From: Cytobacillus oceanisediminis 2691
GTDB lineage: Bacteria > Bacillota > Bacilli > Bacillales > Cytobacillaceae
Reading direction: 5' to 3'
Assembly (NCBI RefSeq): GCF_007678455.1
Contig: NZ_VEEP01000007.1
Span: 1-61,395 of the forward strand
Length of the DNA: 61,395 nt
Shown: positions 7,701 through 11,867 of the stretch, one piece after another
Layout of the letters: each line of letters starts with the position of its first letter
Position numbering within the stretch: position 1 is the stretch's first letter
Notes under the pieces: generated by a model
Database searches by the model: none
Told to the model about the DNA's origin: nothing
Seen by the model: the letters and a program-made list of their open reading frames with translations, nothing else
Made by a program: the position numbers and the translations under genes

Positions 7701-8432
7701 CTAATTGAGAAGGCTTTTCCAATCATTTATAAAAGTGGAAGCAGATGCGTTGGGGGATGACAACACTTCCTCTGTGGGACCAGTCTGTTTCAGCTCACCA
7801 TCCATCAGGATCGCAAGCGTTCCAGCAAGGTATTTCAGTTCCATAAGATCGTGGCTGACAAAAACTGTTGTCGTTTTCGTCTGCCCGATAATCGACTTAA
7901 TATCCTTCAATAACTGCACCTTCGTGGGGAAGTCAAGTGCAGAGAAGGGTTCATCGAGGAACAGGACTTCCGGCTCAAGCACCATTGCCCGGGCAAGGTT
8001 GACACGCTGGGCCTCGCCGCCGGACAGGTATGCTGCGTGTTTTTTGGCAAGATGGCTAATCTGGAATTTTTCCAGCCAGTAGGCAACCTTTTGCTTTACT
8101 TCCTGGCGGGGAAGATTCCTTAGCTTCAAGCCAATCGCAACATTTTGAAAAACGGTTGTATCAAGAAGCAGCGGCTGTTGCATCGCGACAGCGAATTTTC
8201 TTCGCATCTTAAGAGAGAGATCGTCAGAGATATCCTGACCTTTGAAAAAAATCGAGCCCTGAGCTGGTTTCTCCAGCAGGGACAAAGCTTTTATAAAAGT
8301 GCTTTTTCCAGCACCATTCGGACCCATGATCCCTAGGATTTCTCCGTCTTGTATCTCAAAGTGGGGGATGGACAGCAGGTTTTTCTTCCCGGCTCTCACT
8401 TCTAAATTTTTTACAGTAATCAGTGGGGTCAT
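7701..8432 (-). CDS. tupC: Tungstate ABC transporter ATP-binding protein
   Basis: A 243-residue ABC ATPase that powers tungstate (possibly also molybdate) import. Walker A is GPNGAGKST at about 37-45, the Q-loop region QQPLLLDTTVFQN follows, signature LSGGEAQRVNLARAM and Walker B VLFLDEPFSALD with the switch His in VSHD. No C-terminal TOBE-like extension is present, unlike ModC. Its ATG overlaps the tupB stop by four bases (ATGA), so the two are translationally coupled. The assignment to tungstate comes mainly from the neighbouring TupA-type binding protein. Confidence 0.85.
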   Translation of the reverse strand: MTPLITVKNLEVRAGKKNLLSIPHFEIQDGEILGIMGPNGAGKSTFIKALSLLEKPAQGSIFFKGQDISDDLSLKMRRKFAVAMQQPLLLDTTVFQNVAIGLKLRNLPRQEVKQKVAYWLEKFQISHLAKKHAAYLSGGEAQRVNLARAMVLEPEVLFLDEPFSALDFPTKVQLLKDIKSIIGQTKTTTVFVSHDLMELKYLAGTLAILMDGELKQTGPTEEVLSSPNASASTFINDWKSLLN

Positions 8433-9127
8433 AGGCTCCGCTTCCTTTGCTGTAAGTAAGTCAGGCTAAATGTGATAATGAACGCCAATGTCATCAGGAT
8501 GAATGAAAGTGCAAGAGCGATATCGAAATTGCCTTTCGATACTTCCATGACAATCGAAGTCGTGAGGATCCGGGTCTCGCCGCTGAGATTGCCGCCGACC
8601 ATCATTGCGGCGCCGACCTCGGCAATGACTCGTCCAAATCCGGCTATGATGGCGGCAAGAATCGCAAGCTTTACTTCTTTCATCAAAATCCAATATAGCT
8701 GGAACTTCGTCGCTCCAAGCGCTTTGACCTGAAGGATCAGTTTAGGATTGATTTGCTGGAATGCCGTGCTTGTCAGCGCTGTGACAATCGGCAGTGAAAC
8801 GAGAATCTGTGCCATGATGATTGCGGTTGGCGTGTACAGCCAGGCCAGATCGCCAAGCGGACCAGAGCGCCACAGGAAAAGAGTGATCCATAGACCAGCG
8901 ACGACAGGAGGGAGGCCCATGCCGATATTGATGATGGCAAGGAGCAGCTTCCTTCCCGGAAATCGGGCAAGCCCAAGGAACATTCCCGCTGGAATACCGA
9001 TCATTGTGCTGATCAGCACAGCTGTAATCGATACCCTCAGCGTCAGCAGGGTAATCTCGAGGATTTCCCGGTCTCCTGACAGGATCATTTCTATCGCTTT
9101 TTTCAATCCTTCTAATAAAAGTTCCAT
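8429..9127 (-). CDS. tupB: Tungstate ABC transporter permease
   Basis: A 232-residue permease with about six hydrophobic segments and a BPD-type EAA-like loop (LGATKFQLYWILMKEVKLAIL). It belongs to the TupB/WtpB/ModB permeases and would form the membrane channel with TupC. The start is taken at ATG 9127; a TTG two codons upstream (9133) is possible and neither has a strong ribosome site. Unusually, 175 bases separate it from tupA, and this gap holds a dispersed fold-back repeat. Confidence 0.85.
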   Translation of the reverse strand: MELLLEGLKKAIEMILSGDREILEITLLTLRVSITAVLISTMIGIPAGMFLGLARFPGRKLLLAIINIGMGLPPVVAGLWITLFLWRSGPLGDLAWLYTPTAIIMAQILVSLPIVTALTSTAFQQINPKLILQVKALGATKFQLYWILMKEVKLAILAAIIAGFGRVIAEVGAAMMVGGNLSGETRILTTSIVMEVSKGNFDIALALSFILMTLAFIITFSLTYLQQRKRSL

Positions 9128-9200
9128 ACGCAATCAGACTTTCTTTTGAATTTGTACTTGCAAAATTTCTGAGAATTGAAGTATTACACTTCAAGAATTG

Positions 9201-9302: not shown

Positions 9303-10172
9303 TTATTCAAAAAGGAAGAATAATGGCTCGCCGTACTCATCGGTGCCAAATTCCTTGATAATCTTCTTTGTCTCTTCTGAGGTCATATAGTCGACAAATG
9401 CTTTCGCACCTTCTGCATTTACTTTATCATGTTTTTCCTCGTTAACTTGCATAACGTGATAAATATTCAGCAGGCTTTCGTCACCTTCAACCAAAATTCC
9501 GGTGTCAGGCATGTTCTTTTTCTGAGCCAGGAATGTAGCACGGTCTGTCAAAGTATAAGCTTGTTTTTCGGAAGCGATCTGCAGTGTTGCACCCATCCCT
9601 TGTCCAGCTTCGATATATGCATCACCAAGGCTTTTCGGATCAAGAGAAGATTTCTTCCAAAGTTCGATCTCTTTTTTATGAGTGCCGGAATCATCACCAC
9701 GAGACACGAATGAAGCTTTTGTATCAATGATTTTTTTCAATGTTTCAGGTACTGTTAAGCCTTTTACTTTTGCTGGGTCTTCAGCTGGTCCAACAATGAT
9801 GAAGTCATTGTACATGACCTTCTGTCGGTTGATGGCATCGCCGCTTTTTACGATTTCTTCCTCCGCTGCAGGTGCGTGCACAAGAAGGACGTCCGCTTCA
9901 CCGCGTGTTCCCATTTCAAGAGCCTGTCCGGTACCAACGGCAATGATTTTCAGATTATAATTGTTTTTTTCTTCAAAATCAGGCTTCAGAACATCAAGAA
10001 GGCCGCTATCCTGAGTACTGGTAGTTGTCGCTAGGATCAAATCCGTTTTTTCTGTTTTTTCCGTTTTTGTCTCTTGCTGATTTTCAGCTTCCTTTGTCGA
10101 GGAGTCAGAACAGCCTGTAACAAAAGCGAACATAAGTACAAGCAATAGTGAAATTAAATGTTTGAATTTCAT
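9303..10172 (-). CDS. tupA: Tungstate-binding lipoprotein
   Basis: A 289-residue extracellular solute-binding lipoprotein. The signal peptide ends in the lipobox FVTGC with Cys 21, followed by a Ser/Glu/Lys/Thr-rich linker. The TupA hallmark LILATTTSTQDSGLLD follows, and FVSRGDDSGTHKKEIELWKK is the second conserved oxyanion-binding region. TupA proteins bind tungstate very tightly and discriminate against molybdate. ATG at 10172 follows GGAGGAATAAGGA, which lies inside the last codons of the upstream regulator gene, so the two are coupled. The binding protein supplies metal for tungsten- or molybdenum-cofactor enzymes not seen here. Confidence 0.9.
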   Translation of the reverse strand: MKFKHLISLLLVLMFAFVTGCSDSSTKEAENQQETKTEKTEKTDLILATTTSTQDSGLLDVLKPDFEEKNNYNLKIIAVGTGQALEMGTRGEADVLLVHAPAAEEEIVKSGDAINRQKVMYNDFIIVGPAEDPAKVKGLTVPETLKKIIDTKASFVSRGDDSGTHKKEIELWKKSSLDPKSLGDAYIEAGQGMGATLQIASEKQAYTLTDRATFLAQKKNMPDTGILVEGDESLLNIYHVMQVNEEKHDKVNAEGAKAFVDYMTSEETKKIIKEFGTDEYGEPLFFLFE

Positions 10173-10175
10173 TCC

Positions 10176-11096
10176 TTATTCCTCCGTTGAGTGGTTTCCA
10201 TAAATGATGTTTCCGAATTCTTCAGCATCATAGCCATCAAGGTCTGCAATGCTATCTTTGAAATTGGTGAGCTGGATCAGGTCGATCAAGTGCTGGAGGG
10301 CTTCTTTGTTTCCAGGAGTCCAGCGGAACACTAAGTCAAACTGTTCCCTCGTGAGCGGGATGAAATCGAGACCTAGCTGGCTTGCTGCGCACCTGATTCC
10401 AAATGCTGCATCTGCTGTACCCCTGCTGATATGAGCTGCAGCCCCCAGGTGTGTCCACTCTTCATTTTCATAACCCTTCACATTTGTCGGCTCAAGTTTT
10501 TCATTGGCAAGGAAGGAATCGAGCAGGAAACGGGTGCCGGCTCCTTTTTGGCGATTGACAATAGTGACGTCAGTCCTTGCCAAATCTTTGACCCCGGTAA
10601 TATCCTTTGGATTGCCCTTCGCGACAATCATACCCTGCTCCCTTGAAGCAAGCCTCATAACGGTAATAGGCTCGTGGACAAACAGCTGCCGGATGAAGGG
10701 AAGATTGTATTGCTGCGATGTCGGGTCGAGCAAATGGACGGCCGCAATATCGGCGCTGCCGCGATACAGCATCATCAGACCTTCGAGACTGCCGATGTAG
10801 GAGGGAGTGATGCTGAGTCCCGTTCCTTCAGAGGCTATGTACTTTACCAGCTGTTCGACCAGGAAATCATGGCTGCCAGCGAGCTGCACAGAATGCTGGG
10901 AATTTCCCTTTGCTTCCTGAACTCTGGCAGGAGTTGCGGACATGCTGGTTTTGTATCTTTCAAACTCGCTTTCTTCGATGCGCATCTTATTGCCCACTTT
11001 GAAAGCGGCAAGGTCTCCGCGCTTGATCATTTCATAGACGGTATGCTTTGAAATCTTCAGCATGGAGGCGATTTCATCGGGAGTGTAAATTTGCAA
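10176..11096 (-). CDS. HTH regulator with oxyanion-binding-like domain
   Basis: A 306-residue likely regulator of tungstate/molybdate uptake. Residues 1-50 are an excisionase/MerR-like winged helix (YTPDEIASMLKISKHTVYEMIKRGDLAAFKVGNKMRI in pieces), and about 75-295 resemble the periplasmic-binding-protein-like domain of type 2 (PBP_like), here without a signal peptide, so cytoplasmic. Such fusions commonly lie beside modABC or tupABC and are thought to sense the oxyanion or cofactor. It is the first gene of the operon, two to three bases before tupA's start region, and is divergent from the selenoprotein gene. Helically phased 10-bp repeats upstream may be its operator. Confidence 0.85.
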   Translation of the reverse strand: MQIYTPDEIASMLKISKHTVYEMIKRGDLAAFKVGNKMRIEESEFERYKTSMSATPARVQEAKGNSQHSVQLAGSHDFLVEQLVKYIASEGTGLSITPSYIGSLEGLMMLYRGSADIAAVHLLDPTSQQYNLPFIRQLFVHEPITVMRLASREQGMIVAKGNPKDITGVKDLARTDVTIVNRQKGAGTRFLLDSFLANEKLEPTNVKGYENEEWTHLGAAAHISRGTADAAFGIRCAASQLGLDFIPLTREQFDLVFRWTPGNKEALQHLIDLIQLTNFKDSIADLDGYDAEEFGNIIYGNHSTEE

Positions 11097-11217: not shown

Positions 11218-11344
11218 ACAATTTAGGAATTAGATTACCAAATAAAACCTTCACAAAATACTCCAGGCAGTATCGTGTATTTCTGATTCAATACATGGTA
11301 AACTAAACTCTAGAAATATTTGATGCAGAAAGGAATACGGGAGA

Positions 11345-11620
11345 ATGCAGATTTCAGATAAAGCGCGCGACATTTTAAAAGAAATCCTCGCAGAGCGCAA
11401 TGCGGAAGGTATCCGCGTCTACTTTGGCGGCTTTGGCTGAGGAGGCCCGCAGATTGGTCTGGCTCTGGAAGAGCCGGAAGAAGATGATCATGTAACAGTA
11501 ATCAATGAAATCCAAGTTGCGATTGAATCCAATATCGTCGACTATACAGAAGGCATGGCCCTCGAATATGACGAATACCGTGAAGGCCTCGTCCTCATGG
11601 GCGGCGACGGCGGCTGCTGA
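11345..11620 (+). CDS. HesB/IscA-like selenoprotein, TGA at codon 32
   Basis: A 91-residue HesB-like protein read through an in-frame TGA (11438-11440). It starts MQISDKARDILKEILAERNA, continues GIRVYFGGFG, then TGA, then GGPQIGLALEEPEEDD, and ends GLVLMGGDGGC before tandem TGA-TAA. In cysteine relatives the TGA position is the first conserved Cys of the GFGCxGPxxGL motif, and HesB-like selenoproteins are an established family. Frame, codon use and similarity continue on both sides of the TGA. AAAGGA lies nine bases before the ATG. The C-terminal CGC pair of IscA is reduced to GGC, leaving Cys 91 and Sec 32 as likely redox or metal ligands. A broken gene is the alternative. Confidence 0.85.
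11459..11477 (+). promoter_or_regulatory. Candidate bacterial SECIS stem-loop
   Basis: CTGGCTCT (11459-11466) pairs with AGAGCCGG (11470-11477), eight pairs with one wobble, around the loop GGA. The loop's first G is 27 bases beyond the TGA, within the usual distance for bacterial selenocysteine insertion elements, which need a G at the loop start. Confidence 0.65.
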
Positions 11621-11688
11621 TAAATGTGCACACCTCATGTGCATGCCTGACATAAATGGCGCACATCTATTTGCACAGGCCTGACATC

Positions 11689-11727
11689 AAAAAATGCACA
11701 CCATCTTGTGAATGGTGTGCATTTTTT
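11689..11727. terminator. Bidirectional terminator
   Basis: AAATGCACACCAT (11692-11704) pairs with ATGGTGTGCATTT (11712-11724), with A-run before and T-run after. It can end the selenoprotein transcript rightward and the uppP transcript leftward. A smaller TGCACA/TGTGCA hairpin lies at 11627-11643. Confidence 0.9.
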
Positions 11728-11767: not shown

Positions 11768-11867
11768 TCGCTATATAAAGTAAAAAGTCGCTATAAAAAA
11801 ATAAAAGTCGCTATAAAAAGTAAAAACTCGCTATAAAAATGAAAAACTCGCTATAAAAAATTTCAGA
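11768..11867. repeat. 20-bp tandem array B, 5 units
   Basis: TCGCTAT starts at 11768, 11788, 11808, 11828 and 11848, an exact 20-bp pitch; typical unit TCGCTATAAAAAGTAAAAAC. The last unit overlaps the uppP stop codon region (11863), so the array occupies the 3' untranslated region of uppP up to its terminator, the same placement as array A. Confidence 0.9.

Follow-up and report, generated by a model that had tools for sequence, protein, structure and literature searches.

A HesB-like gene with a very probable in-frame selenocysteine codon in Cytobacillus oceanisediminis 2691

A HesB-like selenoprotein, with the UGA at codon 32 as selenocysteine, is almost certainly encoded at positions 11345-11620 (+) of the 61,395-nucleotide stretch of Cytobacillus oceanisediminis 2691 analyzed here (contig NZ_VEEP01000007.1; hereafter the window), as judged from comparative sequence evidence. 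It is a selenoprotein gene of an already known kind: HesB-like selenoproteins are a known family, and with 86 organisms and 90 proteins in a table of PMC5029168 they rank as one of the commoner selenoprotein families. Callers that end frames at UGA do not see this gene. It and its features are:

11345-11620, forward strand: very probable HesB-like selenoprotein gene encoding 91 residues, with Sec at position 32 and its last Cys at position 91; the coordinates include the TGA stop (from frame, homology and selection)
11438-11440, forward strand: in-frame TGA, proposed selenocysteine codon (codon 32; Cys aligned there in relatives)
about 11329-11335, forward strand: likely ribosome-binding site AAAGGAA, largely conserved in a 21-row upstream alignment
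11459-11477, forward strand: SECIS-type hairpin (CTGGCTC-TGGAA-GAGCCGG), separated from the TGA by 18 nt, conserved and covarying
11618-11623, forward strand: tandem stop TGA TAA, read from the sequence
11690-11727, forward strand: terminator-like hairpin with a T run; similar hairpins lie 3' of the gene in many genus copies
11375-11653, reverse strand: antisense ORF of 92 aa with an ATG start, rejected as a gene

The reading frame, its relatives and its two TGA codons

The frame begins with ATG, runs for 59 further codons beyond the TGA at codon 32 and closes with TGA TAA. A single 91-codon frame with a start and a ribosome site was what an earlier, sequence-only reading had described, and we found both the ATG and AAAGGAA, with the TGA at codon 32 as the sole break. 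The predicted protein is MQISDKARDILKEILAERNAEGIRVYFGGFG-U-GGPQIGLALEEPEEDDHVTVINEIQVAIESNIVDYTEGMALEYDEYREGLVLMGGDGGC and its C-terminus is GGC. Around the TGA, the context GFG-TGA-GGP fits U-x-G-P, the motif given for the HesB-like selenoprotein family in the accessible part of PMC13188914, so that the protein would be a HesB-like selenoprotein in the literature sense. Downstream of the gene, at about 11768-11866 of the window, lie several close copies of TCGCTATAAAAA.

Our search of 18,950 NCBIfam models returned TIGR01911 (HesB_rel_seleno) as the top match of the window protein (E 5e-17, 62.3 bits), in agreement with the HesB-like identity first proposed for it. Because this score is under the curated TIGR01911 cut-off of 66.35, we file the protein as a homologue and not as a formal member of that model; TIGR01911 was matched at E 0.001 by 29 of the 29 members scanned. 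The match to PF01521 (E 6e-5, 23.6 bits) is under the Pfam cut-off of 26.3, the solved A-type proteins that match by sequence are 1nwb, 2apn and 1r94, and the predicted structure has a poor mean confidence (pLDDT 60.4). Scores against the A-type equivalogs ErpA, IscA and SufA were 31, 21 and 20.6 bits, far from their cut-offs of 117, 150.6 and 136.2. A C-terminal C-x-C is the motif of A-type carriers; it is absent from the window protein, its relatives end mostly in CC, SC or GC, and the canonical genes of other genomes show CGCG where C-x-C is expected. Copies that are 96-98% identical occur in ten named records, namely five Mesobacillus (among them M. boroniphilus, M. subterraneus and M. selenatarsenatis), four Bacillus sp. 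and one labelled Chryseobacterium sp.; a literature search for selenocysteine together with Mesobacillus found nothing.

The genus set comprised 21 genomes, 20 of them with a copy (19 distinct coding sequences) and one, 66% complete (G078), with no match. All 20 copies have TGA at codon 32. Codon differences from the window copy, counted over related and hence non-independent rows, were, before the TGA, 97 synonymous against 18 non-synonymous (all possible single changes, 61:218) and, after it, 256 synonymous against 30 non-synonymous (possible single changes, 120:411). Variable columns numbered 15, 6 and 67 at the three codon positions of the forward frame. On either side of the TGA these data point to strong purifying selection, as strong after it as before. 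Frameshifts in close relatives, which the sequence-only reading had named as evidence that would tell against a selenoprotein, occur in none of the 20 copies. Cys-containing relatives place their Cys at the TGA column of the alignment, as had been claimed, and among 120 loci the aligned codon is TGA in 105, TGC or TGT in 14 and TAA in one, with some genomes counted twice and five of the 14 Cys-codon loci being canonical IscA-like genes.

A nonsense mutation or a sequencing error in a dying gene would be another reading of the TGA. Decay is possible in this family, where one species has TAA at the codon and a genome without the machinery holds a truncated TGA-bearing relic, but the TGA persists in every genus copy with strong constraint beyond it, and many genera carry the same TGA together with a covarying hairpin. 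We give this explanation a negligible probability and reject it on the conservation of the TGA and the constraint downstream.

The antisense frame that had been expected over the gene does exist, open for 92 aa and with an ATG. It is, however, extremely improbable as a real gene: of the 20 genus copies only two, those of the window's genome and of another genome of its species, keep the ATG, an extra stop falls within the shared part of the ORF in five of the 20, and 67 of the 88 variable columns fall at third positions of forward-frame codons. With neither start nor frame conserved among the 20 genus copies, we rejected the antisense gene.

At the other end of the selenoprotein gene, the TGA at codon 92 could in principle encode a second selenocysteine (Cys-Sec-COOH), with the adjacent TAA as the true stop. 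Among 93 distinct TGA rows, which are related to one another, 57 end in Cys-Cys, 32 in a single Cys and four otherwise; the stop after Cys-Cys is TAA or TAG in 57 of 57 and TGA in none, whereas 19 of the 32 single-Cys rows, a good part of which belong to the genus, stop with TGA. The stop directly after this TGA is kept in 16 of the 16 genus copies that have it; by comparison, 23 of the 94 longer ORFs in the fetched stretches of this genome end in TGA and two of these 23 have a stop next. A Cys-Sec end is also listed for SaoC (PMC13188914, accessible part), and the downstream stems exceed those of shuffled sequence in length (5.75 vs 3.6). Against this, codon 92 is TAA in four of the 20 genus copies, a qualifying downstream hairpin is missing from five of the 16 TGA copies, the long stems are terminator-like hairpins and our covariance (SECIS) model reports nothing at the gene end. 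Because of the TAA copies and the lack of a conserved SECIS-like hairpin after it, we read codon 92 as a stop and rejected the second selenocysteine as very unlikely. One TGC to TGA change in a Cys-Cys-stop ancestor would explain an end of Cys followed by TGA TAA.

The hairpin downstream of the TGA

The TGA at codon 32 is followed by a spacer (11441-11458), a stem strand CTGGCTC (11459-11465), the loop TGGAA (11466-11470) and the second strand GAGCCGG (11471-11477), which gives the gene a hairpin after the UGA with G in its apical loop, as in selenoprotein genes. A loop starting with G at 27 bases past the TGA had been noted; with an extra T-A pair the loop becomes GGA, and its first G is indeed the 27th base. 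Taken alone, the window hairpin region shows just a modest gain in stability over synonymous recodings, 55 of 1000 of which fold with as low an energy, and this is weak single-sequence evidence.

Hairpin sequences were taken as distinct 42-mers with duplicates removed, giving 68 from the 105 TGA rows and 83 from rows scoring at least 80. In the 68-sequence set, 95.6% of the 476 cells of the seven pairs are paired, with both-side changes in five of the seven; none of 500 shuffles was as high on any of five pairing measures, and pairing falls to 21-47% when the partner strand is slid. When later rows were included, 544 of 581 cells over 83 sequences were paired and 19 both-side cells fell in six pairs, against a maximum of seven both-side cells and four pairs in 1000 shuffles. 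Entropy at the third codon positions within the hairpin is 0-0.26 bits (columns 24, 27, 30 and 36), with column 33 at the loop end (1.03 bits) and column 39 at a T-G/T-A pair (1.13 bits) as the others, while third positions outside the hairpin range over 0.42-1.76 bits. The loop is TGGAN in 82 of 82 distinct rows, and later rows add TGAAT and TGGGA. In one species (L162), all seven pairs are kept although the peptide has changed from LALDEP to LRLDGV. The 12 distinct sequences with a Cys codon, canonical genes included, form one to four of the seven pairs. In these alignments, the hairpin is nearly frozen across genera, with its pairs preserved through two-sided changes.

Searched against the genome, the covariance model gave its three highest scores, 64.2, 48.9 and 48.3 bits, to HesB-like TGA genes and 12.6 bits to the next hit; its training rows included these three genes, and scoring covered 150 of the 1820 first-look candidates. 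The SelD and FdhA hairpins were not listed in this search of the genome, so we regard the model as specific to HesB-like genes.

Selenocysteine machinery and distribution across the family

The genome, an assembly of 4.9 Mb in 477 contigs with completeness 100, contains all the machinery for which the sequence-only reading had proposed a search: SelA (568 bits), SelB (361.7 bits), SelD (397 bits) and two tRNA-Sec genes with anticodon TCA. SelD has its own in-frame TGA in STKAG-U-GCK, and the formate dehydrogenase FdhA has one in NRT-U-HAP. The two tRNA-Sec genes (C332:395485-406162; L001, L002, L009, L010) are 10.5 kb apart and differ at one of 97 bases, at acceptor position 2. Between them are what we take, from reading the ORFs, to be an OLD-like ATPase ORF and IS110-like transposases, and the stretch they flank is perhaps an island at selC. 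At least two tRNA-Sec genes are listed for several other genomes of the family. A third HesB-like TGA gene (C22:211550-211786; L021) is of the MGIG-U-GGP type without a terminal Cys and lies about 15 kb from selA and about 17 kb from selD; the same type occurs in other family genomes.

Across the bacillus family, we found a match to the window protein at E 0.001 in 144 of 193 genomes and none in 49. SelB is above its cut-off in 170 of the 193 and tRNA-Sec in 172, so that the sporadic selenocysteine use in Bacillaceae assumed at the outset does not hold here; the machinery is the rule. These bacilli are mostly aerobes. A 2026 review states, in its accessible part, that aerobic bacteria rarely retain selenoproteins (PMC13188914), and PMC5029168 found Sec users of both kinds, aerobic (40.4%) and anaerobic (35.8%). 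Since this source has Sec users on both sides, the surprise at selenocysteine in this family is moderate. The 170 genomes with SelB far exceed the three Bacillales selenoproteins counted in 2006, according to the accessible part of PMC1794560.

Both selB and tRNA-Sec are missing from 20 genomes (one of them 66% complete), and none of these has an intact TGA form. Seven have Cys forms (G064, G067, G165, G169, G172, G173, G176), three have only canonical IscA-like genes (G041, G168, G177), one has a truncated TGA-bearing relic (G171) and nine have no match. Among the other 173 genomes, 134 have a match at E 0.001, and 128 of these have at least one in-frame TGA row, a count that includes one genome whose row also has TAG (G020) and one whose best copy has TAA (G010); that this TGA stands at the Sec codon was checked in the fetched loci, the 120 aligned and later ones. 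In the six without a TGA row (G030, G032, G105, G127, G128, G131), five carry Cys forms of the HesB-like family, one of them partial, and one carries a canonical gene only. The remaining 39 of the 173 genomes have no match, and therefore selB is not kept for the HesB-like gene alone.

This distribution bears on whether the UGA might be read through without selenium, by suppression with Trp or Cys. Relatives have Cys and not Trp at the position, the hairpin accompanies the TGA forms while Cys forms make few of its pairs, and Sec machinery and TGA forms co-occur across genomes. We consider such readthrough highly improbable and retain selenocysteine insertion.

Broken HesB-like relics with TGA were found at L064/L148 (G171) and L165 (G020); in G171, where selB and tRNA-Sec are not found over the cut-offs, the relic represents decay after loss of the machinery. 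One HesB-like copy in G010 (L055) has TAA at the Sec codon with its hairpin intact. We rejected a recoded UAA in that genome, where the tRNA-Sec anticodon is TCA and the other HesB-like copy keeps TGA. In G044, where the first SelB is on C14, a second SelB over the cut-off adjoins a tRNA-Sec gene (C16:63779-65898) and may form with it a transferable selB-selC pair.

Gene neighborhood, proposed function and known systems

The following lie upstream of the gene or divergent from it:

10176-11096, reverse strand: HTH_17 + PBP_like regulator-type protein, divergent neighbor of hesB
9303-10172, reverse strand: TupA-like binding protein (237.6 bits, under the equivalog cut-off of 400)
8429-9133, reverse strand: TupB/ModB-like ABC permease (TupB 163.6 bits, under the cut-off of 320)
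7701-8432, reverse strand: ABC transporter ATP-binding protein of the same cluster as the TupA- and TupB-like genes
11296-11304, forward strand: extended -10-like element TGGTAAACT, from the upstream alignment, with a putative promoter role
11258-11273, forward strand: conserved upstream element ATACTCCAGGCAGTAT, from the upstream alignment, a possible regulator site

The pattern ATAC-N8-GTAT (16 bases) occurs at window 11258-11273 and upstream of hesB in L135, L137-L139, L141 and L143, and in these six other loci a -10-like TATAAT lies against it or partly within it. It has 40 matches in the 300 nt upstream of hesB in 108 TGA rows, compared with 51 in 648,525 background bases. It resembles the CsoR-family operator consensus. 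We do not claim it as such an operator, since 34 of the 40 matches come from the orthologous group of the window, where the conserved letters also fit another motif.

Gene context was surveyed in 56 loci (L090-L145), which were drawn from the best-scoring matches and not at random, mostly with 3 kb flanks, and in nine of 12 named loci (L076, L079 and L083 were left out). Neighbors were named on representatives and extended by BLAST cluster; for arsB- and arsR-like clusters of other genomes the naming was done by eye, and the CsoR-, DsrE2-, TupA- and TupB-type names rest on scores under the model cut-offs. In 22 of the 56 loci, arsC-, arsA-, arsD- or arsB-type genes lie upstream on the same strand, with arsA included in 19 and ending within 30 bases of hesB in 12. 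DsrE and rhodanese genes lie downstream in 10 loci, eight of which also have a CsoR-like gene. Tungstate-type genes are divergent in three of the 56 and are present in all nine named loci used; the HTH_17/PBP_like gene sits beside hesB in the same nine of nine and in three of the 56. None of the three contexts was found in 21 of the 56 loci. The window copy, with its tungstate-type neighbors, is outside any ars operon, and the second genomic copy (C221) follows arsR-arsB-arsC-phosphatase. On a protein tree of 92 columns, two changes are enough to account for the three context labels, which is the minimum possible; this tree is poorly resolved, with 53 of its 99 inner branches open. It was built without truncated, partial or low-scoring rows and without canonical IscA-like ones, and the 3.2 kb genus loci took their 'tup' label in it from the named loci.

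SelB brings Sec-tRNA to SECIS elements of this sort. SelB would thus deliver Sec-tRNA at the hairpin, the UGA would be read as selenocysteine and a 91-residue protein would result, in which a small A-type (IscA/HesB-like) domain may use Sec32, perhaps with Cys91, as a ligand or nucleophile. Its soft-element targets might be Fe-S, arsenic, reactive sulfur or a thiometalate. That the Sec32 domain acts as a soft-element ligand or nucleophile, as gene context suggests, seems to us plausible at somewhat below an even chance. For HesB-like selenoproteins, for which no function was found in the accessible parts of the literature examined, we infer that they take part in the handling of arsenic, reactive sulfur or metal, and the ars and sulfur-gene settings offer a handle on the function of a little-understood protein.

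More tentatively still, the HesB-like selenoproteins here may be soft-element handlers in operon-bound branches and not general Fe-S carriers, and they could be a main reason that nearly the whole family keeps selenocysteine. The branches in this doubtful but possible joint proposal would be arsenic resistance, a CsoR-rhodanese-DsrE reactive-sulfur cluster, and transport of the tungstate type next to formate dehydrogenase metabolism. A serious contender, also falling a little short of even, is an ordinary house-keeping Fe-S carrier of the A-type that happens to contain selenocysteine and has no tie to arsenic, sulfur or tungsten: the window protein is homologous to IscA/ErpA and more than a third of the surveyed loci show none of the three contexts, but the C-terminal C-x-C is missing, 35 of the 56 loci have ars, DsrE/rhodanese or tungstate-type genes, and a quarter of the family genomes (49 of 193) have no match at E 0.001.

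Among known systems, the ars1 operon of Bacillus sp. CDB3 (arsRYCDATorf7orf8) has a HesB-like orf7 adjoining a dual-specificity phosphatase gene, orf8, according to the accessible parts of PMC4562236 and PMC5481582, and the second copy in our genome likewise has a phosphatase gene and hesB after ars genes. The relatives studied here, however, use TGA, the window copy is outside ars, and those parts of the CDB3 reports mention no selenocysteine. With the A-type Fe-S carriers IscA, ErpA and SufA the window protein shares a homologous domain, but it scores far under their equivalog cut-offs, is without C-terminal C-x-C and would have Sec in place of the first Cys. With the HesB-like selenoproteins (TIGR01911; NF038090) it shares the proposed Sec in U-x-G-P, and it differs in its sub-cut-off score, its single terminal Cys and its position divergent from tungstate-type genes. 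Finally, bacterial SECIS elements are described in the accessible part of PMC1088965 as stem-loops that directly follow the UGA and have a small apical loop containing G. The window hairpin resembles them in lying directly after the UGA with such a loop, whereas the HesB-like hairpins are distinct in having a TGGAN loop nearly throughout and a nearly fixed stem.
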